Below are positions 2,263-20,766 of a DNA stretch of 35,152 nt, piece after piece. The translations under genes and the position numbers were made by a program. Source of the stretch: Gemmatimonadota bacterium. GTDB taxonomy: Bacteria > Gemmatimonadota > Gemmatimonadetes > Longimicrobiales > RSA9. The notes beneath the pieces were generated by a model. The model was not told the DNA's origin, searched no databases, and worked only from the letters and a program-made list of their open reading frames with translations. Every line of letters begins with the position of its first letter. The stretch's first letter is position 1. Location of the stretch: the NCBI GenBank assembly GCA_039715185.1, contig JBDLIA010000028.1, forward strand, positions 1 to 35,152, read 5' to 3'.

Positions 2263-3366
2263 ATGCGAATCGGCCTGATGCTGCGCGCACTGGATGAAAG
2301 AGGCGGGGTCGGCGTTTACGCGCGCAACCTAACAGAGGAACTGCTGGCGCTGGACAGGCACAACCATTACGTGCTTCTGTACCGCAGCGCCGAGCAACTA
2401 GGGCGGTTTTCGCACTATCCCAACGTTACCGAGCGGGTAGTGCGCGCGCCGGGCAAAGCGCTTTGGGACCAGATTGCGGTTCCCTGGCGGCTGTGGCGGG
2501 ACCGCGTGGACGTGGTGTTCCACCCCAAGTTCACGGTCCCTCTTCTGGCCCCGTGTCCGTCTCTCATGGTGCTGCACGGAGCGGGCTGGTTTCTGACGGA
2601 CTTCTTTGGGAAGTGGGACGTGCGTTACGTCAAGCTGGTCATGCCCCTCTACCTACGTCGGGCGACAAAGGTGCTGGCGGTATCGCCGGCCACCAAGGAA
2701 ACCTTCAACGCAGTCTTCAACCTCCCGGATGGCCTGATCCAGACCGTCTATTTCGGTCCGGCCAGCCATTTCAGGCGCGTCGAGAACCCCGATCGCCTGG
2801 CCGAAGTCCGCGCTCGCTACGACCTGCCTGACCGTTTCGTCTTCACGCTGACCAAGGCAAACGGCGGCGAGCGCAAGAATATCGCGGGAATCCTGGAAGC
2901 CTTCCGCCTCCTGCATTTGCGGACCGGCGGCAAACTCGTCATCGGGGGCAAGGGCTGCGAGCGATTCTCGGAGGACTACGGCGTATCCGAGCAAAGCTAT
3001 GGACCGGATGTCCTGTTTCCCGGTTGGATCTCTCAGGAGGATCTGCCTGCTGTTTATTCCCTGGCAGACGTCTTCCTGTATCCCTCCAACCTGGAGTCCG
3101 CATCGATCCCACTCATGGAGGCCATGGCGTGCGGAACGCCCATTGTGACGTCGAGGGTGCCAGACATGATGAATGTCGCGGACAACGCCGCTGTCTTCGT
3201 CGACCCAGCGCGCCCCGATGAGATCGCGGAGGCGACGCAGAGGGTGCTCGAGGATCCCGAGCTGGCCCACCGCCTCGGGGAGCGGGGTCTGGCACGCTCC
3301 AGCATCTTCAGCTGGAAGAAATGCGCTCAAGAGACTCTGGACCTCATAGAGGCAGCGGCCGCGTGA
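2263..3366 (+). CDS. Glycosyltransferase family 4 (GT-B fold)
   Basis: A 367-residue retaining glycosyltransferase. The N-terminal domain opens with MRIGLMLRALDERGGVGVYARNL, a typical donor/acceptor Rossmann start with a Gly-rich loop. The C-terminal domain holds LTKANGGERKNIAGILEAF, where the K/R residues normally contact the nucleotide-sugar phosphates, and the E-x7-E motif in YPSNLESASIPLMEAMACG. The ATG is preceded by an AGGGGG ribosome binding site at good spacing. It sits 22 bases after the methyltransferase and 19 bases before the next gene, so co-transcription is likely. It presumably adds one hexose-type sugar to the lipid-linked glycan at the cytoplasmic membrane face; the sugar is unknown. 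Confidence 0.9.
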   Translation: MRIGLMLRALDERGGVGVYARNLTEELLALDRHNHYVLLYRSAEQLGRFSHYPNVTERVVRAPGKALWDQIAVPWRLWRDRVDVVFHPKFTVPLLAPCPSLMVLHGAGWFLTDFFGKWDVRYVKLVMPLYLRRATKVLAVSPATKETFNAVFNLPDGLIQTVYFGPASHFRRVENPDRLAEVRARYDLPDRFVFTLTKANGGERKNIAGILEAFRLLHLRTGGKLVIGGKGCERFSEDYGVSEQSYGPDVLFPGWISQEDLPAVYSLADVFLYPSNLESASIPLMEAMACGTPIVTSRVPDMMNVADNAAVFVDPARPDEIAEATQRVLEDPELAHRLGERGLARSSIFSWKKCAQETLDLIEAAAA

Positions 3367-3385: not shown

Positions 3386-5134
3386 ATGCGCTCTTGTGCG
3401 GGACTGCACGGACGCGTCGGAGCGGGCCGGCAACGAGCCTTCGGCGACCGTGGAGGCCAATCCCATCGGTGCCTCGAGCCGTCCGTGACACCTGCGCCCC
3501 CCCGCACCGAGCAAGAGCCGGGCGCGCGCGGGCTCGGTGCCTTCCCGGGTCCCGTTCTCGTTCTCGCGCCGCATATGGATGACGAGACGCTCGCGTGCGG
3601 GCGCCTCTTGGCCGCGCTGGCGACCGCCGGGCGGACCATCCACATCCTATACGCCACGGATGGCGCCCGGTCTCCCCGCGTACGCGAGGACGACGCGCAA
3701 GCCGTCGTGCGGTCGAGAGCTCGCGAGGCCCACTGCGCCGCCGCCGCCTTGGGCCTTTCGGCGCATCGGCTTTCATTCCTCGCGCTGCCCGATGGGAGCC
3801 TCGCCCGCCACACAGTGTCGCTTACACGCGGCGTCGGTCGCTTGTGGGACGGCGTGCGACCCGGCTCCGTGCTGCTACCCTTTCGCTATGACCGCCACCC
3901 CGATCACCTGGCGTTGCATCGCGCGGCGCTCGCGTGCGCTGGTCGCGCTCCCGGACGGCCGGTGCTGTGGGAGTACTTCGTTTACTACCGTTGGCGCCTG
4001 GTGCCTGGCGGGGACGTGCGACGTTGCGTGCGGGAGGACGTGATCCATGAGCCGGCAACGCTCGTGTTCTCCGAGCACAAGCGGCGTGCCCTTGAGTGTT
4101 ATCGCACGCAGACGACCGTCTGGGCACCGGGACAACGGCGGGCCATCATCCCCCAGAGCCGGGTGGAGGAAGTGAGCACGGCGCCCGAACTGTTTGCAAA
4201 GATGGAGGCGGGCGGTCGCTCGCCCCTTGCGCCCGGCGTTAGATCCTGGGTACGCGTGACGCACCGCCTGGAGCCGAAGCTCAAGCAAATCAAGGACACG
4301 GCGGCCGACATGGCCCATGGCGCTGTCACGATGCGGCGGGGCCGCCGATCCCGGCGGCTGGCGCCTGCCGACGGCGCGGCCAGCGAGGTCCCGCCGCCAA
4401 CGCGCGTAGTGGTCTTCGCGAGCCCGTTCCCCCTGCCCGCAGAATGGCTTTTCCTCGCCCGGGTCGATGCGCACCCGAAGCTTGAGCTCACGGGCGTGCT
4501 GTGCCGTGGATCGGGCACCGGCGGCAGGGAGCGCATGGTGGACGCCTGGCGACGGCGGGGATGGCTCGCGCCGGCGGTGCTCCTGGCCGACTACGGTCGG
4601 CGATACCTGCAGCGCGCGGGACCCGATCGAGCGACACGCGTTCGCCTTCGACGTCGATTCCGAGTCGCACCGAACGTACATGCGCCGGACGTTCTTCGGT
4701 GGGCCGAGTCGTTGAGGCCGGACATCGGGGTCGTGTACGGCGGCCCGATCCTGAAGCCCGAACTGTTCGATATTCCCACGCGGGGCACGCTGGGCGTGCA
4801 CCACGGACAGCTTCCGGAATATAGGGGCAAGAAGACCATCTTCTGGGCGATGTTCAACGGTGAGAAGAGCGCCGGCGTAACGATCCAGAAGATCAACACC
4901 GGGTTGGACACCGGCGAGGTGATTCGCGAAGGTGCGGTCCGGATTCGCGGCCGGTCCTACGGCGCAGTTTCCCGCGAGGTCCAAGCGCTCGGAGTAGACC
5001 TCCTGCTCGACGCGATTCTTGCCAAAGGGCAGACCGGATCCGGGACGAGCCGTGGAAGCGGTGGCATGTTGTATCGCGACCCGAGTGCAGCCGACATCGC
5101 GCGCTTTGTCGTGAGCCGATTCAGGAGCAGGTGA
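3386..5134 (+). CDS. Two-domain fusion: PIG-L (LmbE) deacetylase plus formyltransferase
   Basis: One uninterrupted frame joins two enzymes. From the ATG at 3386, residues 56-240 form a PIG-L zinc deacetylase: APHMDDE at 61-67 and RHPDH at 170-174 supply the His/Asp/His zinc ligands and the catalytic Asp; the usual Pro of AHPDDE is Met. A linker with many Arg, Ala and Pro residues spans roughly 300-338. Residues 339-545 form a formyltransferase of the methionyl-tRNA/sugar N-formyltransferase type: GVHHGQLPEYRG at 470-481 and GLDTGE at 506-511. Known families suggest removal of an N-acetyl group followed by N-formylation of the freed amine on a sugar; that coupling is inference. The first 33 residues are low-complexity, so the in-frame GTG at 3485 (549 residues) may be the true start. 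The formyltransferase half lacks the usual catalytic Asn. Confidence 0.85.
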   Translation: MRSCAGLHGRVGAGRQRAFGDRGGQSHRCLEPSVTPAPPRTEQEPGARGLGAFPGPVLVLAPHMDDETLACGRLLAALATAGRTIHILYATDGARSPRVREDDAQAVVRSRAREAHCAAAALGLSAHRLSFLALPDGSLARHTVSLTRGVGRLWDGVRPGSVLLPFRYDRHPDHLALHRAALACAGRAPGRPVLWEYFVYYRWRLVPGGDVRRCVREDVIHEPATLVFSEHKRRALECYRTQTTVWAPGQRRAIIPQSRVEEVSTAPELFAKMEAGGRSPLAPGVRSWVRVTHRLEPKLKQIKDTAADMAHGAVTMRRGRRSRRLAPADGAASEVPPPTRVVVFASPFPLPAEWLFLARVDAHPKLELTGVLCRGSGTGGRERMVDAWRRRGWLAPAVLLADYGRRYLQRAGPDRATRVRLRRRFRVAPNVHAPDVLRWAESLRPDIGVVYGGPILKPELFDIPTRGTLGVHHGQLPEYRGKKTIFWAMFNGEKSAGVTIQKINTGLDTGEVIREGAVRIRGRSYGAVSREVQALGVDLLLDAILAKGQTGSGTSRGSGGMLYRDPSAADIARFVVSRFRSR

Positions 5135-5532
5135 GCGTTGCGTTGCCACATCGCCTGTCGCGCCGAGACCAGCCGCCCGGAGATCGCGGTGCGGTGTCGC
5201 GAACGCATGAGCGAGGCCAATCGCGCGCCATTCCGGGGCCTTCGCGAAGGGAAAGGTGTCGCTCAGTCGCGCGATCGGGTCGACGCCGGCTGGCACGCGA
5301 TGTGGAGTAGGATTGAGAACCAGTGCGTGCGGCAATCCAGTGCCGCGCGACCTCGCGCAAACACGGGGATCAGCGTTGGCCAGCGATAGGGCATTTCGAA
5401 TCGGACCCATGCCGCGGGCTCTCGGTGAGCACGGGGCGGTGAGAGCCTGCGTCCGATGTCCAGCGGTGAGGGAGCCGACCACCCGGCGGCGCACTCTGCG
5501 CGGCGCCGGGCGAGAGCGACGGAGCTGACACA
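5135..5532 (+). other. 398-base gap without a supported gene
   Basis: This is the only long break in an otherwise overlapping plus-strand operon. Short open frames exist on both strands, but none has a recognisable motif, a good ribosome binding site or homology I can name. The last 50 bases hold a strong hairpin just before the next gene. The gap could hold an internal promoter, a leader RNA or the decayed remains of a gene. No convincing -35/-10 pair was seen. Confidence 0.5.
5482..5510 (+). promoter_or_regulatory. GC-rich hairpin upstream of the methyltransferase start
   Basis: An inverted repeat pairs CCCGGCG (5482-5488) with CGCCGGG (5504-5510). Inside it GCGCA (5489-5493) pairs with TGCGC (5497-5501) around a CTC loop, leaving a two-base GG bulge. 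It ends 22 bases before a TTG start that has a GGAG at 5521-5524. No T-run follows, so it is a poor intrinsic terminator. It could be a leader structure affecting translation or mRNA stability; function is unproven. Confidence 0.4.
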
Positions 5533-6279
5533 TTGGGTATCACCCGGTCCCTCTTCCGCCGCTTCGTGCCGTCCTCCATCCGCAGGCGCCTGACGCGGCT
5601 GGCGGTCCACCCTCCGGTTGGCTCGGTCGACTTCGGCGACCTTCGGGTGACGCGGCCGATCAGCACCAACTGGGGGTATGACAGAGGCACGCCGATCGAC
5701 CGCCACTACATTGAGCGCTTCCTGGAGGCCCACGCCCGCGACATTCGCGGACGCGCCCTCGAGGTGAAGGACGACACGTACGTGAGTCGATTCGGCGTCG
5801 CGGTGGAAAGCGTGGACACGCTGCTACCGCACCGCGAGGGGAGCGCCACGGTCGTCGCTGACCTGACCCGACCCGAGCAGCTACCGGCGGATACGTACGA
5901 TTGCTTCGTGTGCACCCAGGTTCTCCAGTTCATCGACGACGTGGCGGCCGCAATAGCGGGGTGCCGGAGGGTCCTCCGTCCGGGCGGAGTCCTGCTCGTC
6001 ACCGTGCCCGCGATTTCGCGCACCGAAGGAGCTCCCGAGGACTCTTCCGGGGACTACTGGCGCTTCACGCCCCGTTCGGCGGAGCGTCTGTTCGGCGCCG
6101 ACTTCGGCCCGGACGCCGTCCGGGTCAGCCTGTACGGCAACGTGCTGAGCGCCACCGCCTTCCTGCACGGTCTGGCGGCCGAGGAGTTGACGGCCGCGGA
6201 GTTGGACCTCGCCGACCCCGAGTTTCCGGTCATTGTGGGAATCCGGGCCCAGGTCGGCCCGGAGTCGGCGAACCCGTGA
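5533..6279 (+). CDS. SAM-dependent methyltransferase-like protein with altered motif I
   Basis: A 248-residue protein. Its fold is shown by DCFVCTQVLQFIDDV followed by CRRVLRPGGVLLVTVPA, the motif II/III region of class I methyltransferases. The glycine-rich motif I is not classical: ALEVKDDTYVSRFG near residues 75-88 stands where LEIGCGxG is expected. DYWRFTPRSAERLF near 175 is common in methyltransferases of glycan clusters. The start is a TTG with GGAG eight bases upstream; no ATG or GTG fits well. It overlaps the following deacetylase by four bases (GTGA). It may methylate a glycan or nucleotide-sugar, or the changed motif may mean reduced or different activity. Confidence 0.75.
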   Translation: MGITRSLFRRFVPSSIRRRLTRLAVHPPVGSVDFGDLRVTRPISTNWGYDRGTPIDRHYIERFLEAHARDIRGRALEVKDDTYVSRFGVAVESVDTLLPHREGSATVVADLTRPEQLPADTYDCFVCTQVLQFIDDVAAAIAGCRRVLRPGGVLLVTVPAISRTEGAPEDSSGDYWRFTPRSAERLFGADFGPDAVRVSLYGNVLSATAFLHGLAAEELTAAELDLADPEFPVIVGIRAQVGPESANP

Positions 6280-7205
6280 GGGGTGTCGGCGTGGCGCGGC
6301 GATTCCTGCGTCGACGGCTGGACCGTTGGCGGCGAGGGGCCTTCATCCTCCTCTACCATCGAGTCGAGGACGATGGCCCGGATCCGTTCGGGATCCGCGT
6401 GACTCCCGCCCGGTTCGAGGAGCAGCTCGCCATGCTGCGCGACCGCTGGACGATCGTGCCCATGGCCGACCTCGTGCGGGCGCTGCGCTCCGGCAGGGAC
6501 GTGCGTGGGTGGGTGGCCATCACCTTCGATGACGGCTACGAGGACAACCTCAGGTTGGCTCTGCCCGCGCTGCGTGAAGCGGGGCTACCGGCCACGGTTT
6601 TCGTCGTGTCCGACGAGCTCGGGCGGCGCTTCTGGTGGGACCGGCTCACCAACCTCTGGGCGACGCGGCGCGGCGCCCCGGACACCGGCGAGTTCTTCGC
6701 GCTGCACCGGCGGCTGCGGGGCACCGAGCCGGGAGCCCGCGATCGTGAGCTGGACGCGCTGGCCTCCGAGCCGGCGCTGGCTGGCACGCAAACCGCCTCG
6801 GGCCGTCCGCCGCGCGCGATGACCGACTCCGAGGTCGCCGAGCTCGCCGCCAGCGGACTCGTCGAGATCGGAGCACACACGCGCAACCACCCCTTCCTCC
6901 CGGACCTGACTCGGGAGCGCCAAGAGCGGGAGATCGGCGGCGCCAAGGTCGTGCTGGAGGAAGTCATCGGCCGACCGGTGCCCGGTATGTCGTACCCGTA
7001 CGGCGGATTCGACGGCGCCAGCGTGGTTGCCGCCGGGAAAGCCAGCTTCGACTACGCTTGCGCCGCCGCCCCCGGCGTGTGCACAACCGCTTCGCCCCTC
7101 CTGAGCCTGCCCCGCGTCACCGCTCTCGACTGGTCGGGGGACGAGCTCGACACCCATCTCCGCGCGCGCGCTCCCGGCTCGGCTCGGCCCGGGAGCCGGC
7201 CGTGA
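6276..7205 (+). CDS. Polysaccharide deacetylase (NodB/CE4 family)
   Basis: The chosen GTG at 6276 overlaps the upstream stop as GTGA and gives 309 residues; the frame stays open further upstream, but that part runs through the methyltransferase in another frame. AFILLYHRVEDDG at about 22-34 is the usual opening strand of the NodB domain. Catalytic motif 1 TFDDGYEDN is at 83-91 and metal-binding motif 2 HTRNH at 201-205. MSYPYGGFD further on matches motif 3. CE4 enzymes hydrolyse N- or O-acetyl groups on sugars with a divalent metal. No signal peptide is seen: the N-terminus is Arg-rich (RRFLRRRLDRWRR), so it probably acts in the cytoplasm or at the inner membrane on lipid-linked glycan. The start might instead be the GTG at 6291. 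Confidence 0.85.
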   Translation: MRGVGVARRFLRRRLDRWRRGAFILLYHRVEDDGPDPFGIRVTPARFEEQLAMLRDRWTIVPMADLVRALRSGRDVRGWVAITFDDGYEDNLRLALPALREAGLPATVFVVSDELGRRFWWDRLTNLWATRRGAPDTGEFFALHRRLRGTEPGARDRELDALASEPALAGTQTASGRPPRAMTDSEVAELAASGLVEIGAHTRNHPFLPDLTRERQEREIGGAKVVLEEVIGRPVPGMSYPYGGFDGASVVAAGKASFDYACAAAPGVCTTASPLLSLPRVTALDWSGDELDTHLRARAPGSARPGSRP

Positions 7206-8437
7206 CGCGGGCGCTCCGCATCGTCCTGCTGACCGAGACCTACGCGCCGCAAGTGGGAGGCGCGGAGACCCAGGCGCGCCTGCTGGCCGAAGGCCTCGCG
7301 GCCCGCGGGCACCGGTTGCTGGTCGTGACCCGCCGTACCAGCCGCGACCTGCCCCGCCGCGAGGTTCTGCTCGGCGTGCGCGTACGGCGCGTGGGCCCGG
7401 TGGGCTCGCATCACCTGCTCAAGTGGGGCTTGGTTGGCAGCGTCCCGCCGGGCGCGCTGGGCGCCCTGCGAAGCGCCGACGTTCTCTTTGTCTCAGGCCT
7501 GAGAGTGCTAGGGATCCCGGTCCGGCTCACGTCCCTTGCCGCGCGCGTCCCTTGCGTGCTCAAATCGGACAATAATGGCGAGCTTTCAGGGGCTTTCTTC
7601 GAGCGCGGCCTGCGGAGGCTCCGGTTGCGCACCGACAGCGCCGCCGTGCGCATCGCCATCGCCGCGCGCAACCGGCTGCTCCGTGGGGCCAACGCCTGGG
7701 TGGCAATTTCCGAGGACATAGCGACCGAGTACGAGTCTCACGGCGTGCCGGCCCCTCGCATCCACCGCATTCCCAACGGCGTGGATACCGAGCGCTTTCG
7801 ACCTGCCTCCGAGCAGGACCGCGCCGCGCTGCGTAGGCGGCTCGGCCTCCCCGCAAGGGCACCGGTGGCGATCTACACGGGGCGACTCGTGTCCTACAAG
7901 GGGCTGCCCGAGCTACTCGAGGCGTGGCGCTCCGTGCTGCGCCTCCACCCCGATGCGATTCTCCTGCTCGTGGGGCCTGGGGGCCTGGACATCCACAACT
8001 GCGAAGCCGAACTCCGCGGATTCGTGGATCTGCACGAGATGGCAGAAAGCGTGCGCTTCACAGGCGTCGTCGACGCGGTAGAGGACTACCTGCGCGCGGC
8101 TGACGTCTTCGCGCTGCCGTCGCGCAACGAGGCGTTCGGGTTGTCGCTCGTTGAGGCCATGGCGTGCGGGTTGCCGTGCGTGGCCACCCCGGTGGGGGCC
8201 ATGAGAGAGATCGTGCGCGACGGGGACAGCGGCCTGTTGGTGCGCGCGGGCGATCCTGAGGCTCTTGCGCGGGCGCTGGCCGACCTGCTGGCGGGCGGGC
8301 CGGAGTCCCTGGCAATGGGGGCCAGGGCGGCGGAGTCTGTCCGCGGGCGCTTCGGGGCGAACGCCGTCATCGGGGCCTACGAGGATCTCTTCCGGCGGGT
8401 GTCGGCTCGTGTGACGGCGCAGGAGGAGCTTGCGTGA
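7202..8437 (+). CDS. Glycosyltransferase family 4 (GT-B fold)
   Basis: From the GTG at 7202, which overlaps the deacetylase stop (GTGA), the protein is 411 residues. It begins RIVLLTETYAPQVGGAETQA, a standard GT4 N-terminal strand and Gly loop. The central segment IPNGVDTERFRP and the donor-binding strand AIYTGRLVSYKGLPELLEAW are highly typical. The E-x7-E motif is in PSRNEAFGLSLVEAMACGLP. A longer in-frame reading from 7058 lies over the upstream gene and was rejected. The protein should transfer a sugar from a nucleotide-sugar to the growing glycan with retention of configuration; donor and linkage are unknown. It is translationally coupled to the sulfotransferase that follows. Confidence 0.9.
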   Translation: MTRALRIVLLTETYAPQVGGAETQARLLAEGLAARGHRLLVVTRRTSRDLPRREVLLGVRVRRVGPVGSHHLLKWGLVGSVPPGALGALRSADVLFVSGLRVLGIPVRLTSLAARVPCVLKSDNNGELSGAFFERGLRRLRLRTDSAAVRIAIAARNRLLRGANAWVAISEDIATEYESHGVPAPRIHRIPNGVDTERFRPASEQDRAALRRRLGLPARAPVAIYTGRLVSYKGLPELLEAWRSVLRLHPDAILLLVGPGGLDIHNCEAELRGFVDLHEMAESVRFTGVVDAVEDYLRAADVFALPSRNEAFGLSLVEAMACGLPCVATPVGAMREIVRDGDSGLLVRAGDPEALARALADLLAGGPESLAMGARAAESVRGRFGANAVIGAYEDLFRRVSARVTAQEELA

Positions 8438-11424: not shown

Positions 11425-12744
11425 TCAATCCGCTGCGGTGGTGCTCGTGCTGGACGCTCCGTGACCGGCTCCCGGTCCAGACGCCTCCTGAACGGCAACC
11501 GAATAGCGCGCTGAAACGACCCCCTCACGCGGCGCCCCTCCCCTCGGCAGAGGCGCAACCCCGCCCTCGACCTCGACCTGGAACGCGACGTCGACGGCGT
11601 CGATCGCGCGCCCCGCCTCGTCGCCTAGCCAGAGTCCGCCCTGGTAGATGCCCGGCCTCAGGTGCAGCCTCTCCAGAGCAACGCGCACTGTGTTGCGACC
11701 GGCCCGGAGCCTCAGGTCTGCGGCGTCCAGGTTGAGCAAGCAGGTGCCGCCGGGAGGAGATAGCGTCAGCGAGAGGCTACGCGCGGTGAGGGGCTCGGAA
11801 GCCTCCACGAGGATTTCGAACTCCAGCGGCCTATCGGGGGCAACGCCTCCGTCACCGGGCTTGCCGAACCGGACGGCGCCGAAACGCGCCTGCCCCGAAC
11901 CGCGCCGCGGCGCCGTATCAAGCTCGATCCACCTGCCCGTCGAGGAGGTGGTGCCATCGGGGACGTACTGGGCGACCACCTCCTCGGTCGAGCCGATGGC
12001 GCTGATGCGGCCGTGATCCAGAAGCACGCAGCGGTCGCAGAGGCGCCGGATCGCGCGCAGGTCGTGACTTACCACGAGCACAGTACGGCCCAGATCCGTG
12101 GTGAGGTCGTGCATGCGGGCGATGCAGCGGCGCTGGAACGCGTCATCGCCCACGGCCAGTACCTCGTCGACCACGAGGATATCGGGTTCGAGGTGGGCGG
12201 CCACCGAAAAGGCGAGTCGCAGGTACATGCCGCTCGAGTAGAACTTCACGGGGGTGTCGATGTAGCGGTCTATGCCCGCGAAGGCGACGATCTCGTCGAA
12301 CTTGTCGAGGATCTCGCTACGCTTCATGCCGAGCACCGCGCCGTTGAGGAAGACGTTCTCCCTTCCGGTGAGCTCGGAGTGGAAACCTGCGCCTACCTCG
12401 AGCAGCGACCCGACCCTGCCGCGGACCTCCCCGCGCCCCTCCGTGGGAGCGGTGACGCGGGAGAGGACCTTCAGCAGGGTGCTCTTCCCTGCCCCGTTGC
12501 TGCCGATGATGCCGACGGCCTCACCCTCGACGACATCGAAGCTGACGTCCCGGAGCGCCCAGATCACGTCGGTGGATGAAGCGCCGTCGCCAGAGATCAC
12601 CCGCCTCGCCCACGCCGTCGTATTGCGACCGGCGGCGGCGATCTGGTCGCGCAGTGTGTTGTGTCGACCCTTCAGCTTACCGGTCCGGTAGCGCTTGCCC
12701 AGACCGAAAGCGCGGATCGCGTATCGGGTGCCTTCAGACGACAT
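11425..12744 (-). CDS. wzt: ABC transporter ATPase for polysaccharide export, Wzt type with C-terminal extension
   Basis: From the ATG at 12744 the protein is 439 residues. Walker A GSNGAGKST is at 81-89, the signature YSSGM at 169-173, Walker B DILVVDE at 188-194 and the switch His in VVSHDLR at about 227. GSLLEVGAGFHSELTGREN after Walker A is characteristic of KpsT/Wzt ATPases. Residues from about 285 on form a beta-rich domain (FEILVEASEPLTARSL) matching the position of the Wzt carbohydrate-binding domain, which in known systems recognises the finished glycan end. It powers export of lipid-linked glycan across the inner membrane with Wzm. A GTG at 12765 would add seven residues; the ATG has GGGG upstream and an 11-base overlap with wzm. 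Confidence 0.92.
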   Translation of the reverse strand: MSSEGTRYAIRAFGLGKRYRTGKLKGRHNTLRDQIAAAGRNTTAWARRVISGDGASSTDVIWALRDVSFDVVEGEAVGIIGSNGAGKSTLLKVLSRVTAPTEGRGEVRGRVGSLLEVGAGFHSELTGRENVFLNGAVLGMKRSEILDKFDEIVAFAGIDRYIDTPVKFYSSGMYLRLAFSVAAHLEPDILVVDEVLAVGDDAFQRRCIARMHDLTTDLGRTVLVVSHDLRAIRRLCDRCVLLDHGRISAIGSTEEVVAQYVPDGTTSSTGRWIELDTAPRRGSGQARFGAVRFGKPGDGGVAPDRPLEFEILVEASEPLTARSLSLTLSPPGGTCLLNLDAADLRLRAGRNTVRVALERLHLRPGIYQGGLWLGDEAGRAIDAVDVAFQVEVEGGVAPLPRGGAPREGVVSARYSVAVQEASGPGAGHGASSTSTTAAD

Positions 12745-13618
12745 CGGCGAACCCCGCTTCCACACGCCTGAAGTAGAAGGCCCCGGTCACGAACAGCAGC
12801 AGCGCTACCAACGCCGAGGCCAGGACCAGACCGGGGGGAGCCGAGTCCGTCCCCAGAAGCGTCCAGCGAAAGCCCTCGACCACGCCCGCCATGGGGTTGA
12901 GGCCATACAGGGTGCGCCAGGGCTCTTCGAGCAGGCTGCTTGGATATGCGATCGGAGTGATGAAGAGCCATGCCTGAACGGCGAACGGCAGCGCGTGCCG
13001 GATATCTCGGTAGCGCACGTTCAGGGCGGACAGCCAGAAGCCCACTCCCAAAGCGGTGACCGTCGCGAGGAGAAGAAGCGCGGGTATCCAGACCACGTTC
13101 CCAGTCGGGGCTATCCCGTAGTAGGCCATCATCGCGATCAGCACGAGGAAGGCGATCGCGAAGTCCACCAGGCCCGCCAGCACGGCCGCTATCGGCACGG
13201 TCAGCCGCGGAAAATAGACCTTCGTGATCAAGTCTCGGTTGGACACCAGACTGTTGGCCGACTGGACAAGGCCCGTAGCGAAGAAGCTCCAGGGAACCAG
13301 CGCAACGAAGCTGAAGATGGGATATGGCACTCCGTCGGAGGGCACTCGTGCGAGACGGCCGAAGAAGATGCTGAACACGACCATCGTGAAAAAAGGCTGC
13401 AGCACAGCCCAAGACGCCCCGAGAAGGGTCTGCTTGTAGCGGACCTTTATGTCGCGCCAGACGAAGAAAAACAGCAATTCCCGGTAGCGCCACAGCGAGG
13501 CGAGGTCCAGCGGCATCCACCTCCGCGGCGGACGGATCACCTCCACGTGGAGCGACTCGCGACCTGCCGCCCGATCCGGCTGCGCAGCCACCGAAGCGTC
13601 CAGGTGTGAAACGCTCAT
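12734..13618 (-). CDS. wzm: ABC transporter permease for polysaccharide export, Wzm type
   Basis: A 294-residue ABC-2 type permease. A cytoplasmic N-terminus of about 45 residues leads into LLFFFVWRDIKVRYKQTLLG, the amphipathic segment seen in Wzm/TagG permeases. About six hydrophobic helices follow, such as LLGASWAVLQPFFTMVVFSIFF, AVLAGLVDFAIAFLVLIAMM, and LVLASALVALLLFVTGAFYF near the end. LNPMAGVVEGFRW before the last helix is another family hallmark. It forms the membrane channel with the Wzt ATPase encoded next, with which its end overlaps by 11 bases. Its start overlaps the acyltransferase stop (ATGA). The glycan exported is probably the product of the converging operon. Confidence 0.92.
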   Translation of the reverse strand: MSVSHLDASVAAQPDRAAGRESLHVEVIRPPRRWMPLDLASLWRYRELLFFFVWRDIKVRYKQTLLGASWAVLQPFFTMVVFSIFFGRLARVPSDGVPYPIFSFVALVPWSFFATGLVQSANSLVSNRDLITKVYFPRLTVPIAAVLAGLVDFAIAFLVLIAMMAYYGIAPTGNVVWIPALLLLATVTALGVGFWLSALNVRYRDIRHALPFAVQAWLFITPIAYPSSLLEEPWRTLYGLNPMAGVVEGFRWTLLGTDSAPPGLVLASALVALLLFVTGAFYFRRVEAGFADVV

Positions 13619-14472
13619 CGGGGCAACTCCCCCGCGACCTCCGGCCCTTCGGCGGCCGCCTCGCGCTCAGTCCCCACATTCCGGTGGCGGACGACCCGCG
13701 CGGGCACGCCCACCGCTACGGCCCCGGGTGGCACGTCCTCGCGCACCAGCGAGCCCGCGCCGATCACAGCGTTCGCGCCGATCGTCACCCCGTCGAGCAC
13801 CGTCACGCGCGCCCCCAGCCAGGCCCCATCGCCGATCGTAATGCCCCTCGACAGGCGCGCCTGGTGGAGAATGGGGGTGTCCAGATCAGCGAACGCGTGC
13901 TCGCCTGCGATGACTGCGGTGTAGGGGCCGATGGAGACGTTCGAGCCGACCGTGATGTGGCTACCGGTGCGCAGGTAGCAGTTGGGCCCCATGGACACGA
14001 AGTCACCGAACTCGATCGACGCGTCCGTGCCGCTCAGGATGCTGTTGCGGCCGATGAGCACGTCGCTGCCCAGGCGCACGCGGGCGTTCGGCCCGCTGCC
14101 CTTGGCGTCCAGCACGGCGCCCTCGTCGAGCGTCACGTTGTCGCCCACGCGGATGCGTCCGGGGCAGCGGAGGGTGACGTTGCGCCCCACGAGGAGGTTG
14201 CGCCCGGCTCCCTCGAGCAGGTGCGGCAGCAGCGCCTTGCGGAGAGCGAGGCCGAAACCGCCGGGCACCGGCCCCAGCATGGCCACGACGGCCTCGTAGG
14301 CGATCAGCGCGCCAAGCGACGTGCTGCCGACGAACATCGCCTGATACTTGGCCAGCGCCGACGCCCCCTCGCCCTTGAGGTGCTCGATGAGCGGCGTCGC
14401 GGCGTCGCTCGCCGGCGCGAGGCGCCCCTCGGCTTCGCCGCCCCCCTGCCCCTCTCGCGGGTCAGCTTCCAT
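13615..14472 (-). CDS. Left-handed beta-helix (hexapeptide repeat) acyltransferase
   Basis: A 285-residue protein. The N-terminal 80 residues include a hydrophobic segment (MFVGSTSLGALIAYEAVVAM). After about residue 90 there are many hexapeptide turns such as VGRNVTLRCPGRIRVGDNVT, IGRNSILSG and VGSNVSIGPYTAVIAG, ending with the family signature IGANAVIGAGSLVREDVPPG. The His in AGEHAFAD is in a place that suits the catalytic His of O-acetyltransferases. Relatives move acetyl or other acyl groups from acyl-CoA to sugars. Overlaps with the flavoprotein upstream (11 bases) and wzm downstream (4 bases) tie it to export, so acetylation of the exported glycan is a fair inference. Confidence 0.88.
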   Translation of the reverse strand: MEADPREGQGGGEAEGRLAPASDAATPLIEHLKGEGASALAKYQAMFVGSTSLGALIAYEAVVAMLGPVPGGFGLALRKALLPHLLEGAGRNLLVGRNVTLRCPGRIRVGDNVTLDEGAVLDAKGSGPNARVRLGSDVLIGRNSILSGTDASIEFGDFVSMGPNCYLRTGSHITVGSNVSIGPYTAVIAGEHAFADLDTPILHQARLSRGITIGDGAWLGARVTVLDGVTIGANAVIGAGSLVREDVPPGAVAVGVPARVVRHRNVGTEREAAAEGPEVAGELPR

Positions 14473-16096
14473 CGTCGTCTCCCACCCGTCCCATGACCTG
14501 CGCGATGACGCCGTGGTCGCCGCGCGCCAGCGCCAGCGCGGCGGCGGCGAGTTCCTCCGCCCTGTCGTCCACGAGCGCTCGCGGCCCGAGCTCGGTGCGC
14601 CGGTACAGCAGATCGTCCACGGTGCGGCCCATTTCGTGCCGGGCCGCGTGCACGAGCTGCCCGAAGATAACAGGCGCTCCCGCCACCACGCGCCTGTCCC
14701 AATCCCTCACCTCGCGCATGGCCGTGACTACCGCGGCGGCACCCGAACCGTAGCAGCGCAACAGGTGGTCGCGCACGTCCGGCGCGAGCGCCACGCCGGC
14801 GGCGGCCTCGACAGCGTCGGCGCGCCCGGGTTCGGCCGGCTCGCCTCCCGGCAGCGGAAGGTACGAATCGGCGGGGCGCAGGTCGGCGCCCCGCAGCTCA
14901 CGGCACAGCGCGTCCACAACGGACTCCGCCAGCTTGCGCGCGTAGCTGAATCGAACGCTCACCACGCTGACCAACCCCGCCGCGCCGTCGGCCGCGTGAT
15001 CACGCACGAGCGGACGACGCAGCAGCCGCACCCGGCCGGGGTCGCCAGCCGCCGCGGGGAGGAGTCCCGCGTGCGTAAGCAGCACGTCCTCGGCGCGCAC
15101 GCGCGGTCCGTCCCACGCTGCGTTGGCCTCTGCCAGGAGCGGCGTCGGGTCCTGTGAGGCGGGGTCGAACGCCTCGGGGGCGCCGTCGAAGGGATAGTGG
15201 CCCGTGCCCAGAATCGTGCGCCCGCGCCAGGGTACGAACAGGAGCTGCCGGGCCGCGCCGTTCCAGCGGCTGCGCAGAGCGAAAGCGACGCGGTAGCCCA
15301 GGTCCGGCAGCACCACGTTCAGCGCCAACGAATGCCGCACGCGGCGCGCGGGAGCCCCCCGCAGGCGACCGCTGAGCGACCGCGCGGTAGCCCCGGTGGC
15401 GACGACCACCCGGCGCGCCCCGATCTCCCACGTCCCGCCGTCGAGGGTGTCGCGCAGGCGAGCGCCGCGAATCGAACCGTCGGGGGACCGCAGCAGCTCT
15501 TCGAGCTGGGCGTGGTTGGCCGCCCGCGCCCCGGCCGCCACGGCCGCTTGGACCAGCGCCAAGACCAGCCGGGCGCCGGAGTACATCTGTCCTTCGTGCC
15601 AAAGCGCGGCGCCGGTCAGCCCGTCCCCGGGCAGGTCCGCCACGTGCGCGCGGGCCTGATCGCGGGTGAGCATCCGCCAGCCGGGGAACGGCCTGTCGCG
15701 CGCGCGGACGGGCGACAGGGCGGCGGCCGCGCTGAGCGCGACGCGCAGCGCCAGCCGGCCCTGGCTCGGACCGCGGTAGGTGGGGAGGAGAAAGGGGAGC
15801 GGGTCGACGAGGTGCGGCGCCATGCGCGCCCAGCCGGCCTGTTCGCGGGCCCCGGACCGAACCGCGCCGACGGCGAGGCGGCGCAAATCGCGCAGGCCTC
15901 CGTGAAGTATTTTCAGGCTGTTCGCCGACGTACCCGCGCCGAAATCGGCGCGTTCGACCAGCGCCGTGGACAGTCCGCGGAGCACCGCGTCGCGCGCTAT
16001 GCAAGCGCCGGTGACCCCGCCGCCGACGACCAGCAGGTCGAATTCCTCCCCGGAGAAGCCCTCGCTGAGTGCTCGCACGGGGAGACTATCCGTCAA
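14462..16096 (-). CDS. GlpD-family FAD-dependent oxidoreductase
   Basis: From a TTG at 16096 the protein is 544 residues, near the usual GlpD size. The FAD loop VVGGGVTGACIARDAVLRG begins near residue 23. DFGAGTSANSLKILHGGLRDL, the flavin contact region, is at about 51-71. RQLLFVPWRGRTILGTGHYP follows in mid-protein, and the C-terminal helical domain includes GRTVDDLLYRRTELG, a strong GlpD trait. Aerobic glycerol-3-phosphate dehydrogenase passes electrons to quinone. One point differs: where GlpD has a GGKLTTYRK-like motif, this protein reads VRFSYARKLAE, so the substrate may not be glycerol-3-phosphate. It overlaps both neighbours. A GTG at 16078 is an alternative start. Confidence 0.82.
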   Translation of the reverse strand: MTDSLPVRALSEGFSGEEFDLLVVGGGVTGACIARDAVLRGLSTALVERADFGAGTSANSLKILHGGLRDLRRLAVGAVRSGAREQAGWARMAPHLVDPLPFLLPTYRGPSQGRLALRVALSAAAALSPVRARDRPFPGWRMLTRDQARAHVADLPGDGLTGAALWHEGQMYSGARLVLALVQAAVAAGARAANHAQLEELLRSPDGSIRGARLRDTLDGGTWEIGARRVVVATGATARSLSGRLRGAPARRVRHSLALNVVLPDLGYRVAFALRSRWNGAARQLLFVPWRGRTILGTGHYPFDGAPEAFDPASQDPTPLLAEANAAWDGPRVRAEDVLLTHAGLLPAAAGDPGRVRLLRRPLVRDHAADGAAGLVSVVSVRFSYARKLAESVVDALCRELRGADLRPADSYLPLPGGEPAEPGRADAVEAAAGVALAPDVRDHLLRCYGSGAAAVVTAMREVRDWDRRVVAGAPVIFGQLVHAARHEMGRTVDDLLYRRTELGPRALVDDRAEELAAAALALARGDHGVIAQVMGRVGDDDGS

Positions 16097-17621
16097 GCGT
16101 CGTGCCGTCGGCCCGATTGGAGTAGGCCGAGCACCCGGCCGAGCTACAGGCGCGCACTCGGTAATCGAACTTGGTTTCCTCGGGCAATCCGGTGTCGGTG
16201 AACGTAATCACGTCCGCGCCCAGCTCGGCGATCCGGCTCCAGCCGCCGCCCCCGGACCCGTTCCTGCGCTCCAACTCGAAGGTCGTCTCGTCCGCAGAGT
16301 TGTCGGCCCAGTCGAGCCGTATCTGGCTCTCGGACAGCCCCGTGGCGACCAGGTCGGTCGGTGGGTTCGGCGGCGCGGCGGCCGGGGTGGTCACCGGCTC
16401 CTCGTTGGAGAAACCGGAGCAGCCGGCGGCGTTGCAGGCCTGCACGCGGTACACGTATCCCGTGCCGGCGGCGAGAGCCTCGTCCATGAAGGCGGGGACG
16501 TTCGGATCCGTGGTGCCCACGAGCTCGAACGCGTCGGACGAATCCAGCCGCCGCTCCACTCGGAATTCCTCCTCGTTGGACGCGTTGTCGATCCATTCGA
16601 GGCTCACCGCGGTCGCCGACGTGGCGGTCGCCGTGAGCTCACTCGGCGCCGCCGGTGCCCCCTGCGGGGCGTGCGTCGCCGCCACCACCGGGCCTACGTA
16701 GTCAGAGCACCCGGCGGCGTTGCACGCCCTCATGCGGTACGCGTACGTGGTGCCGGGGGTAAGCGGACCGTCGGTGTGGGAGGTCGCGCCCGCCGCCGCC
16801 ACGCCGACCTCTACCCACGGAGCGAACAAGGACGAACGCCGCTCGATCCTGAAGGTCTCCTCGTCGTCGGACGCGTCGATCCAGGACAGTTCGATCTCCG
16901 TCTCGGACACCCCGTTGGCGACCAGGCCCTGGGGAGGTGTCGGGGCTGAAGAAACCACCTGGAAGGTCACTTCCAGCACGGCGGCCACCGCCGGGCCCGC
17001 ACCGGATACGGTCACCTGCGCTCCGTAGCTGCCCTCGGCTATCTCTCCGGGAAGCGCGCGCAGGCGCAGCGTCGTGGGCGCGGACTGAGCGTCCAACTCC
17101 GACTCCAGCCATCCGCTCGGGCCACCGCCATCGTACGCGACGCTGACGGTCAAGCCGAACAGAACTCCGCCCCCCGCGTTGGAGACCGCGACGGCGACCT
17201 CTTCGGACGGCAGGCCGCGCCGCCGGGCGCTGACGGTGGCGGTCGCGGGATCGACCGCCACCGCCGGCACGGACGATACCGACACGGTGGCCGAACCGTC
17301 GACGCTCCCCATTTCGGCGGTGATGTCCACCGTCCCCTCGGCCAGCGCGCTCACCAGGCCGTTGCCGTCCACCGTGGCGATGGAGGGATCCGCCGAGCGC
17401 CACGTGATGGGACGCGGCAGGGCGTTGCCCGACGCATCCGTGGCGGTCGCCTGGAGCCGCCGCGTCGCGCCGATGTCCAGCGCAAGCGAGCCCGGGGTCA
17501 CGCTCACGACCGCGACCGGCACCGGCTCGACGACCACTTCATCGCAGCTCAACAGGGCCGCCGCCATGCAGATCATGCCGGCCGCGGCTCTGGACGGTCC
17601 GGATTTGCTCGATACGACCAT
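16086..17621 (-). CDS. Lipoprotein with one Big_2 and three fibronectin III domains
   Basis: From the ATG at 17621 the protein has 511 residues. The N-terminus ends in a lipobox (LLSC, Cys26), so it should be a lipoprotein facing the periplasm or surface. A Big_2 Ig-like domain spans about 37-116 (ITWRSADPSIATVDGNGLVSA). A further beta domain covers about 118-223. Three Fn3 domains follow at about 227-316, 324-412 and 420-510. Each Fn3 ends in the same pattern: RACNAAGCS, QACNAAGCS, RACSSAGCS, with two Cys five positions apart. Such domains usually bind proteins or glycans. The start shares one base with the TPR gene stop (TGATG). Its role is unknown; the place next to a glycan exporter suggests a surface or envelope task. 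Confidence 0.85.
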   Translation of the reverse strand: MVVSSKSGPSRAAAGMICMAAALLSCDEVVVEPVPVAVVSVTPGSLALDIGATRRLQATATDASGNALPRPITWRSADPSIATVDGNGLVSALAEGTVDITAEMGSVDGSATVSVSSVPAVAVDPATATVSARRRGLPSEEVAVAVSNAGGGVLFGLTVSVAYDGGGPSGWLESELDAQSAPTTLRLRALPGEIAEGSYGAQVTVSGAGPAVAAVLEVTFQVVSSAPTPPQGLVANGVSETEIELSWIDASDDEETFRIERRSSLFAPWVEVGVAAAGATSHTDGPLTPGTTYAYRMRACNAAGCSDYVGPVVAATHAPQGAPAAPSELTATATSATAVSLEWIDNASNEEEFRVERRLDSSDAFELVGTTDPNVPAFMDEALAAGTGYVYRVQACNAAGCSGFSNEEPVTTPAAAPPNPPTDLVATGLSESQIRLDWADNSADETTFELERRNGSGGGGWSRIAELGADVITFTDTGLPEETKFDYRVRACSSAGCSAYSNRADGTTLDG

Positions 17622-18823
17622 CAGAACCTCATGCGCACGAAGGACAGATCCACACCCTCTCCCCCCGCACCGATCGCCGGGCCCAGCTCGATCCGCCCCG
17701 CCTCGGTCTCCACCGACAGCCCCAGGCGCGGCCCGCCCGCGCCGGCTCCCGAAGACCAGAGGTGCTGCTCGAGGGCGCCCAGAACGGATACGAGGGCGGC
17801 CGCCCCGATGCCGGCGGCGAGGTACGGACGCTCCGTGGCTGTGCCCACGACTTGCCCGGCCGGGCATTCGCCACCCACTGGCAGGACGATGCAGCTCACC
17901 GTCTGCCGCTCGCTCATGACTCCGAGCGCCACCGCACCCGCCGCTGCGGCCAGGGCCAGGACGCCGACGCCGTATCGACCCGATCGGAACTGACCCAGAC
18001 CGGGGAATACGGCGTTCGCCGCGAAACCGGTCCGCTGCACCGCGGGGCTGGACGGCTGCACGACCGGCGGAGGCGGCGGCGCTTCCAGCGCGGCGAGCCG
18101 CAGCTCGACCGGAGCCAGGTCGTCCGCGTCGGGGCGCAGCTCCAGGTACCGCCGCAGGTCCGCGCGGGCGCCCGCCGTATCCGCGGCCTCCGCCCGCACC
18201 AGCGACCGGTTGTACCAGGCCTCGGGCCAATCGGGGGCCAGAGTCACGGCGTTGGAGAAGGCGGCGTCCGCGCCGGCGATGTCCCCTTCCCCGGCCCTCT
18301 GCAGCCCCAGGGAGAAGGCCGCCTGGCCGCGCCCGTCGACTGACGGCGGCGTGGCCTCGGCGAGGGTCGCGAGGCGCTCCACGGCGTCCTCGGCCTGCGC
18401 GCCGGTCGACACCAGCGCCAAGAATCGACAGTACTCGAATACCGCGCCCGCCGGATCGCTCGCGTCCTCCAGGCCGCGCGCCAGCCGATACGCGACCTCG
18501 GGCGCCGCGGGGTCCAGCGCGGCGGCGCGACGCAGCAGATCGGTGGCACGGTCCGCCTCGCCCAGCAGCGCCGCTTCGTCCGCCTGGCCGAGCAGCGCCA
18601 CCGCCCGATCGCTGTCGGCCGTCGTCGCCGTTCCCGCCCCGAACGGACCCAGCCGCTCGCACACCGATACCGGGGTGGGGAGCGGCTTCAGGTCGCCGGA
18701 CAGATCTCGCTGAGCGCTGGCGGGAGAAGCCGGAGCGCCCAGCAGCGCGCCGGCAACGCCGAGCAAGGCGAGCGCGCGGACGGGCGGAGTGGCGATCTGA
18801 AGACGGGCCGTGATCACGGTCAT
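17621..18823 (-). CDS. Secreted or membrane-bound TPR protein
   Basis: The ATG at 18823 overlaps the RCC1-gene stop (ATGA) and gives 400 residues. A signal peptide ends near ASPASA-Q at about residue 38. TPR-like helical pairs occupy about 73-135 and 165-235 (SLGLQRAGEGDIAGADAAFS, EAWYNRSLVRAEAADTAGAR). A proline run at about 249-254 leads to a C-terminal part with two hydrophobic segments near 287-303 and 334-352; the first follows FPGLGQFRSGRYG, seen in DUF5683-like proteins. Cys311 and Cys320 flank a short loop between them. TPRs mediate protein contacts, so this may link the RCC1-like protein and the Fn3 lipoprotein encoded beside it; that is inference. Confidence 0.78.
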   Translation of the reverse strand: MTVITARLQIATPPVRALALLGVAGALLGAPASPASAQRDLSGDLKPLPTPVSVCERLGPFGAGTATTADSDRAVALLGQADEAALLGEADRATDLLRRAAALDPAAPEVAYRLARGLEDASDPAGAVFEYCRFLALVSTGAQAEDAVERLATLAEATPPSVDGRGQAAFSLGLQRAGEGDIAGADAAFSNAVTLAPDWPEAWYNRSLVRAEAADTAGARADLRRYLELRPDADDLAPVELRLAALEAPPPPPVVQPSSPAVQRTGFAANAVFPGLGQFRSGRYGVGVLALAAAAGAVALGVMSERQTVSCIVLPVGGECPAGQVVGTATERPYLAAGIGAAALVSVLGALEQHLWSSGAGAGGPRLGLSVETEAGRIELGPAIGAGGEGVDLSFVRMRF

Positions 18824-20766
18824 GGCCTCCCGGAGACCCGCGTCGGGGTCGATCGGTTGTCGCGGCTCCGGTCTCCGAGCTGGCCGTGACGATTGTAACC
18901 CCAGCAGTACTGGCGGCCGTCGGTGGCCAAGGCGCAGGTGTGCGCGCCGGCGGCCCAGAGCTGGCGGAAGCGCAGGTCTCCGCTTACCCGTTTCGGCTCG
19001 ACGCGGGGCTCGGTGGTGCCGTCGCCGAGCTGACCGTAGGCGTTGCTGCCCCAGCAGTAGGCGACGCCGTCGCCGCTGAGCCCACACACGTGGACGCCGC
19101 CCGACGCGATGGCGCGAAACGAGACCTCCGCTGACACCGCCTGGGGCGCGTCGCGGTCGGCCATGTCGCCCGTACCCAACTGCCCCGAGTGGTTGCGCCC
19201 CCAGCAGTGAACCACGCCGTTGGAAGCGAGCCCGCACGAGTGGTCGCTACCCGTCGCCAGCGCGCCGAAGTGCAACCCCCCGGCGACCGCCCTGGGACGC
19301 GTTCGCGTGGCGGTCGAGCCGTCTCCCACCTGGCCGTAGCGGTTGCGTCCCCAGCAGTAGGCGGCTCCCTCGAGCGACAGCGCGCAGGTGTGCAGCCAAC
19401 CCGCGCTGATCGCGCCAAAGCGCACCTCAGACGACACGACCGAGGGCGCGGAGCGGTCGTCCAGGCCCCCGACGCCGAGTTGTCCGGTGTCGTTTCCGCC
19501 CCAGCAGTAGCCGCGCGAGTCGATTCCCACGGCGCAGTTGTGCCCGAGCCCCGCCGCAATCAAGCGCAGGGGCACCGGGGACTCGACCTTGCGCCCGTCC
19601 AGCGCGGCGCCGGTCCGCGACGCGCCGAGCTGTCCGTTTCCGTTGGAACCCCAGCAGTAGGCGTCTCCGGCGTCGGTCAGCGCGCAGGCGTGGCGTACCC
19701 CCGCGGCCGCGGTGGCGAACCGCAACCCATCCGCCAGCTGCCGCCCGAGTTGGCCGCTGGTGTCGTCGCCCCAGCAGCGCAGGTCTCCGTCCTCGCCAAC
19801 CCGGCACGTGAAGGTGCCGCCCGGAACGAGTCCGGGGCGCACCGCCAGGGCCGCGCTCGCCGCGGCGGTTGGCCGAGCCTCGCTGCCCTCCGGGCCTTGG
19901 GTCGGATCCCCCCCCGCGGGCCCCGGCGAGGCCACGGCCTGGGGCTCGGCGGCCGCCAGCGCCGGCGCCACCGCGAAGGCGCGGAAGATCACCTCGCGGC
20001 GTCCGTCGTCTCCGAGCCGGGCGACCAGCGTCTGGCCCCCCGCGCGCGCTCCCAGTCTCCACGACGCGCGCGCCAGGCCGGTGGCGTCGGTGCGCGAGCT
20101 GGTCGGCGACACGCCTCCGCTGCCCTCCGCCGGGATGAAAGCGACGAGCACGCCGGGCACCGGACGACCGCCACCGTCCAGCACGCGCACGGCCACCGAA
20201 TCCGCCAGCCGGGTGCCTGGCGCCACGCTCTGCGCGCTGCCCGACGCGCGCAGCGTGGCCGCCACCAGGTCCACGCCCTCGGCGGGCGCGGTCGGGCTGG
20301 CCGAGTCGGCAACGGCCTCCGGGGCGTCTGTCGCGTCTCCGGGCGCGGCCACGACGGGGAGGCCCCGCGGGTCGGTTGGGATCACCGCGCCGGGCTCCAG
20401 CGACCCCGCTAGCGGATCGCCCTCGAAGCCGCCGCCGACCAGTACGGCCGCCGCGCCGAAGCCGAGCACCACCGCGGCGATCGCGGCGTAACGAGGCCAC
20501 CGCCGGCGACGCGGCTTATCGAGCGGCCACGGGGCCGCGGGCACGGGTCCGGACCCGAGTGGAGCTTCATCGTCCGCCGGCAGGGGCAGCAGGACCCTCG
20601 GCAGGTGATCGAAGGGGTGCCTGCGGCCGGGCTCTTCGGGGCGAATCGCGGGTGTCAGATCGACAAAAGGAGACCCCGCGGCGTCGCGCCGCTCGGGCGC
20701 GTCGTCGCCTCCTGATGCGTCGGGTAGGGAGCCCTCGCCCGCGGGCGGGGGGGAATCCTTCGACAT
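18820..20766 (-). CDS. Membrane-anchored RCC1-like seven-repeat propeller with an Ig-like domain
   Basis: A 648-residue protein with the topology of a type II membrane protein. Residues 1-90 are Pro/Asp-rich and end in KPRRRRWPR, followed by one membrane helix at about 93-113, so the rest should be outside the cytoplasm. An Ig-like (Big_1 type) domain lies near 166-251 (DSVAVRVLDGGGRPVPGVLV). From about 317 seven RCC1-like repeats run to the end, each with a CWG core (YCWGSNGNGQLG and variants). Each has a Cys ten residues before the CWG Cys, at 321/331, 361/371, 411/421 and then every 50. Seven blades would close one propeller. It begins a chain of overlapping genes that runs down to wzt. 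Function is unknown; binding of a protein or glycan is likely. Confidence 0.85.
   Translation of the reverse strand: MSKDSPPPAGEGSLPDASGGDDAPERRDAAGSPFVDLTPAIRPEEPGRRHPFDHLPRVLLPLPADDEAPLGSGPVPAAPWPLDKPRRRRWPRYAAIAAVVLGFGAAAVLVGGGFEGDPLAGSLEPGAVIPTDPRGLPVVAAPGDATDAPEAVADSASPTAPAEGVDLVAATLRASGSAQSVAPGTRLADSVAVRVLDGGGRPVPGVLVAFIPAEGSGGVSPTSSRTDATGLARASWRLGARAGGQTLVARLGDDGRREVIFRAFAVAPALAAAEPQAVASPGPAGGDPTQGPEGSEARPTAAASAALAVRPGLVPGGTFTCRVGEDGDLRCWGDDTSGQLGRQLADGLRFATAAAGVRHACALTDAGDAYCWGSNGNGQLGASRTGAALDGRKVESPVPLRLIAAGLGHNCAVGIDSRGYCWGGNDTGQLGVGGLDDRSAPSVVSSEVRFGAISAGWLHTCALSLEGAAYCWGRNRYGQVGDGSTATRTRPRAVAGGLHFGALATGSDHSCGLASNGVVHCWGRNHSGQLGTGDMADRDAPQAVSAEVSFRAIASGGVHVCGLSGDGVAYCWGSNAYGQLGDGTTEPRVEPKRVSGDLRFRQLWAAGAHTCALATDGRQYCWGYNRHGQLGDRSRDNRSTPTRVSGRP
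18899..19780 (-). repeat. Seven tandem in-gene repeats, mostly 150-base period
   Basis: On the plus strand the sequence CCCCAGCAG (complement of the CWG codons) begins at 18899, 19049, 19199, 19349, 19499, 19649 and 19769. Six intervals result: five of exactly 150 bases and one of 120. These code for the RCC1-like repeats. The regular spacing implies expansion by duplication, with sequence divergence between the cores. Confidence 0.9.

Follow-up and report, generated by a model that had tools for sequence, protein, structure and literature searches.

The window, by which we mean the whole 35,152-nt stretch of DNA that was analysed, is a complete contig of a 3.66 Mb draft genome in 252 contigs. 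It carries a single open frame of 549 aa that begins with GTG, ends with a TGA at 5132 and contains no internal stop (Table 1). GTG 3485 is uncertain as the exact start of the coding sequence; no convincing Shine-Dalgarno sequence was found upstream of it, and ATG 3386 is an alternative in-frame start. The N-terminal half matches the PIG-L family PF02585 (E 3.4e-25, 89.4 bits, gathering cut-off 28.2) and the C-terminal half matches the formyltransferase family PF00551 (E 3.3e-14, 53.5 bits, gathering cut-off 26.1), whereas the Pfam search of the protein gave no match to Formyl_trans_C. These scores and the uninterrupted frame bear out an earlier note on this DNA that had read a PIG-L deacetylase and a formyltransferase on one chain, and the motifs it named, APHMDDE, HPDH, GVHHGQLPEYRG and GLDTGE, are all found in the translation. 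Each half aligns to its orthologues across almost its full length. Neither half is a named enzyme, since every NCBIfam equivalog cut-off is missed: BshB1 (50.7 against 182.5) and MshB (18.8 against 224) by the PIG-L half, and fmt (63.9 against 201.5), ArnA (45.1 against 777) and PRK06988 by the formyltransferase half, which falls far short of all three. A housekeeping Fmt reading was rejected on the missed fmt cut-off and on the genome's own fmt-like gene, which has the Asn of the catalytic triad (L002).

The surroundings of the fusion form a glycan gene cluster, confirming the suitable setting that the earlier note had seen in the neighbouring glycosyltransferases. Besides the genes in Table 1, the cluster has a methyltransferase after the fusion, a sulfotransferase and two GT2 glycosyltransferases. 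The closest solved relatives of the GT4 upstream of the fusion include MshA and BshA. The cluster genes of the window that were scanned include no PLP-dependent sugar aminotransferase, and all DegT-type aminotransferases that the genome encodes are on other contigs, which leaves the PIG-L half as the visible amine source inside the cluster. Elsewhere in the window, positions 16086-20766 of the reverse strand encode two proteins, one carrying fibronectin III and Ig-like repeats and another resembling RCC1-type repeats, with a tRNA-Ser gene nearby.

Table 1. Features of the fusion and its surroundings, and related single-chain proteins at other loci (positions are those of the window unless a locus is given).
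Feature	Position	Strand	Evidence
AsnB-like amidotransferase, truncated by contig start	4..1407	+	Profile matches, orthologue comparison
SAM methyltransferase; orthologues in L029, L031, L034	1404..2240	+	Pfam, orthologue comparison
GT4 glycosyltransferase directly upstream of fusion; orthologue precedes PIG-L in 5/5 orthologous pairs	2263..3366	+	
Fused PIG-L deacetylase/formyltransferase-like CDS	3485..5134	+	ORF, Pfam, AlphaFold2, Foldseek
PIG-L (PF02585) domain, residues 25-151	3557..3937	+	Pfam, six-row alignment A5
HMDDE; putative zinc ligands H30, D33; putative base D32	3572..3586	+	H30, M31, D32, D33 invariant (A5)
HPDH, residues 138-141; putative third zinc ligand H141	3896..3907	+	H138, D140, H141 invariant (A5)
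Flexible linker, residues 259-299	4259..4381	+	pLDDT < 50; stop-free in all frames
Formyl_trans_N (PF00551), residues 397-508	4673..5008	+	Pfam, alignment
G437-V-H439; Gly in triad Asn place, His retained	4793..4801	+	Alignments to Fmt and A4
D475, triad Asp, retained	4907..4909	+	Invariant column D193 of A4
CE4/NodB-type polysaccharide deacetylase, own gene	6276..7205	+	
GT4; orthologue is fusion partner of formyltransferase in G046 and G054	7205..8437	+	
ABC exporter (Wzt/Wzm-like) and hexapeptide acyltransferase of glycan cluster	11425..14472	-	
Formyltransferase-CE4/NodB single chains	L046 6554-8428; L045 4977-6698; L053 1399-3432		

The catalytic residues of the PIG-L half are intact: H30, D32, D33, H138 and H141 are invariant in the window protein and its orthologues, and by analogy with MshB we take H30, D33 and H141 to be the zinc ligands and D32 to be the base. 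The Asn-His-Asp triad of formyltransferases, whose roles are presumably those generally assigned in the family, is incomplete in the other half. The Asn-x-His of Fmt and ArnA corresponds to Gly-x-His in the window family; Asn is replaced by Gly in 7/7 family members, and the His and Asp are retained in all seven. The motifs HHG, YRG and AGVTIQ around the triad are strongly conserved across three phyla. AlphaFold2 (12 alignment rows, mean pLDDT 78.8) predicted two confident domains separated by a disordered linker; with a pTM of 0.50 the model does not fix the relative placing of the two active sites, whose orientation the earlier note had suggested comparing. In Foldseek, the N-terminal half best matched MshB and BC1534, and the formyltransferase half matched WbkC, ArnA and Fmt, with WbkC reaching the top target-normalised TM-score (0.67) among the formyltransferases listed.

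By scanning the formyltransferase alignment against one genome per species (84,980 species), we found six loci: two in Gemmatimonadota (contigs of G054 and G046), three in Anaerolineae (Chloroflexota) and one in a Deltaproteobacterium. At five of the six, PIG-L is a separate, overlapping gene directly upstream of the formyltransferase and is itself preceded by the orthologue of the window GT4; the sixth (L031) is without PIG-L within 16.7 kb. At another locus (L033) a NodU/TobZ-type carbamoyltransferase (4197-5975) immediately precedes the orthologous set of GT4, PIG-L and formyltransferase. The family itself is carried by only three of 395 Gemmatimonadota genomes, and no second fused PIG-L-formyltransferase was found in these 395 genomes, in the six species-wide loci or in a second clade of Gly-type formyltransferases (see below). 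The fusion was seen in one MAG only and was rejected as a conserved architecture. The search for PF02585-PF00551 proteins and their gene neighbourhoods that the earlier note had called for thus yielded a singleton fusion but a gene pair conserved in five loci and two phyla. The same note would have counted homologues that are always separate against its reading; all orthologues found are indeed unfused, but in five pairs the two genes adjoin and overlap, an arrangement that suggests the merging of a functional pair.

All three frames are free of stops from the conserved end of PIG-L (codon at about 4295) to about 4403, where the conserved part of the formyltransferase begins; the stops nearest the junction are at 4257 and 4407 in frame +1 and at 4240 and 4483 in frame +2. 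A simple frameshift therefore cannot have joined two genes here, and the sequencing artefact that the earlier note had feared was largely ruled out by this stop-codon test. The ATG at 4331 (residue 283) is in frame and stands where relatives start their formyltransferase gene, and in G046 the two genes overlap as ATGA at about this place; overlapping genes thus appear to have merged end to start in the fusion.

We tentatively propose, giving the idea slightly less than an even chance, that a conserved two-gene cassette, here fused end to start, re-acylates an amino sugar during surface glycan assembly, most simply with formyl. The PIG-L half would remove the N-acetyl group from a 2-acetamido sugar by hydrolysis and pass the freed amine to the formyltransferase-fold half, which would add a one-carbon acyl group to it, most simply formyl from N10-formyl-THF. 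We infer that both halves are active and act on one nitrogen, and likewise the level of action and any benefit of the fusion. To judge by the gene order (glycosyltransferase, PIG-L, acyl transfer), the protein probably acts on a lipid-linked or glycosidic sugar that the upstream GT4 has already transferred, and not on a free nucleotide sugar. Known PIG-L enzymes (MshB, BshB, PIG-L and BtrD) act on glycosides. This family precedent, together with the MshA and BshA relatives of the GT4, makes a lipid-linked or glycosidic N-acetylhexosamine a likelier candidate than a UDP-sugar such as UDP-GlcNAc, and the UDP-N-acetylamino sugars on which the earlier note would have assayed the protein are not the kind of substrate for which PIG-L enzymes offer a precedent.

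Formyl transfer by the window family is a prediction from sequence, unproven because the triad Asn is missing. The next closest formyltransferases in Gemmatimonadota retain this Asn. A second, ArnA-like clade has Gly in its place too and often adjoins PIG-L (G049, Leisingera and six further loci); the ArnA-like Gly-type loci are L044, L069-L071, L075-L082, L084, L085, L087, L088, L092 and L093. In Ensifer, the Gly-type formyltransferase lies beside ATP-grasp and HAD genes. Two haloarchaeal plasmid formyltransferase-like proteins (L072, L074), with Ser at the triad Asn and an HHG/HRG motif, fall inside the window clade on a long branch. In a tree built from 58 formyltransferases the Gly and Asn states require two changes, and grouping all Gly types in one clade is rejected (p-AU 0.022); two separate losses of Asn are therefore probable. 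PIG-L was present in the fetched flank, of unequal length and about 1.5 kb for most, of 14 of 25 Gly-type enzymes and of none of 13 Asn-type non-Fmt enzymes (Fisher p 0.0009). This association is suggestive only, since it comprises just two phylogenetically independent comparisons, and with two independent pairs a sign test on the tree cannot reach significance.

The family-wide Gly, its second occurrence in a PIG-L-linked clade, the skewed neighbour counts and the separate grouping of the nearest Asn-retaining relatives, some of them CE4-fused, would all fit a protein in which the deacetylase works while the formyltransferase fold has changed or lost its chemistry, and binds, hydrolyses or transfers another group. 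The product would then be a free amino sugar or one with a different acyl group. We consider this possible but somewhat unlikely: the conservation of the triad His and Asp and of the surrounding residues in three phyla argues for a working active site, and the link between Gly and PIG-L has few independent instances, with PIG-L neighbours sought within short flanks.

The partners of the formyltransferase vary between loci. In G046 and G054 it is fused to the downstream GT4 and not to PIG-L (L005 244-2298 and L034 6825-10043); both this fusion type and that of the window join members of the cassette. In Leisingera, the PIG-L/formyltransferase pair is flanked by a sugar transferase on one side and a DegT aminotransferase on the other, with a dehydratase also beside it, and the formylated amine there could come from the aminotransferase. 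These cases, and the L031 locus without PIG-L, favour a reading in which both domains are active on different sugars, or on different amines of one sugar, and the fusion is a merging of operon neighbours. However, in three Gemmatimonadota genomes (G355, G417 and G037) formyltransferases are fused to CE4/NodB deacetylases, one of these chains (L053) having Asn at the triad Asp position. These fusions are an independent, convergent joining of a deacetylase and a formyltransferase, and chance merging alone is a poor explanation for fusions with two unrelated deacetylase families. We consider separate substrates or amines quite unlikely. Very improbable is an assembly or sequencing error that joined two separate genes: the draft is fragmented into 252 contigs, all orthologous pairs are unfused and the junction sits at the place of the G046 ATGA stop/start overlap, but with no stop in any frame the error would have to lie in the stop codon itself, and the junction is no homopolymer run.

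The exchange of N-acetyl for N-formyl by one protein, as the earlier note had it, therefore stands in part. Overlapping PIG-L and formyltransferase genes at five orthologous loci in two phyla, the two fusion types made up of cassette members, the convergent CE4 fusions of related formyltransferases, the second formyltransferase clade beside PIG-L, the lack of a PLP sugar aminotransferase among the cluster genes scanned and the two well-folded domains on a flexible linker speak for it, whereas the Gly throughout the family, the orthologue without PIG-L, the Leisingera aminotransferase, the restriction of the fusion to one MAG and the pTM of 0.50 for the domain arrangement speak against it. A broader generalisation, which we regard as unlikely, is that Gly-type formyltransferases form a functional class apart from the Asn-His-Asp enzymes and serve PIG-L-freed amines on glycosides or on sugars linked to lipids. 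Of this class the window protein would then be the first single-chain version, converting N-acetyl to N-formyl (or another one-carbon acyl group) on a transferred sugar.

The N-terminal half has its fold and the catalytic residues HxDDE and HPDH in common with the PIG-L/LmbE enzymes MshB, BshB and BC1534, none of which, to our knowledge, nor any other known member, is fused to a formyltransferase. In the thiol pathways the step after the PIG-L-type deacetylase is cysteine ligation, and in this the window protein differs. WbkC and the N-terminal domain of ArnA share the fold and the triad His and Asp with the formyltransferase half; unlike them, the window protein has Gly for Asn and no Formyl_trans_C, and its amine would come from a deacetylase and not from a PLP aminotransferase. 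The formyltransferase-CE4 fusions likewise place a deacetylase and a related formyltransferase on one chain in the same phylum, but in them the formyltransferase comes first, the NodB-type deacetylase is unrelated to PIG-L and the triad Asn is retained. In the NodC-NodB-NodA, BshA-BshB-BshC and MshA-MshB-MshC routes, glycosyl transfer is followed by N-deacetylation and then by addition of a new N-acyl group. The gene logic of the window cassette is alike, although the acyl group and the acyl-transfer family differ, and we claim no homology for the third enzyme.

Both domains are known. In the open literature, which omits many formyltransferase papers, we found no published PIG-L/formyltransferase or CE4/formyltransferase fusion, no earlier description of the repeated pairing of PIG-L with Gly-type formyltransferases and no papers on ArnA triad mutants. 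If the proposed re-acylation is correct, it would constitute a second route to N-formyl sugars, which starts from a common N-acetyl sugar and exchanges its acetyl group, as opposed to formylation of an aminotransferase product. 'Methionyl-tRNA formyltransferase-like' genes without an assignment in glycan clusters would gain a predicted partner and substrate, and the natural change from Asn to Gly allows a direct test of the accepted triad requirement.
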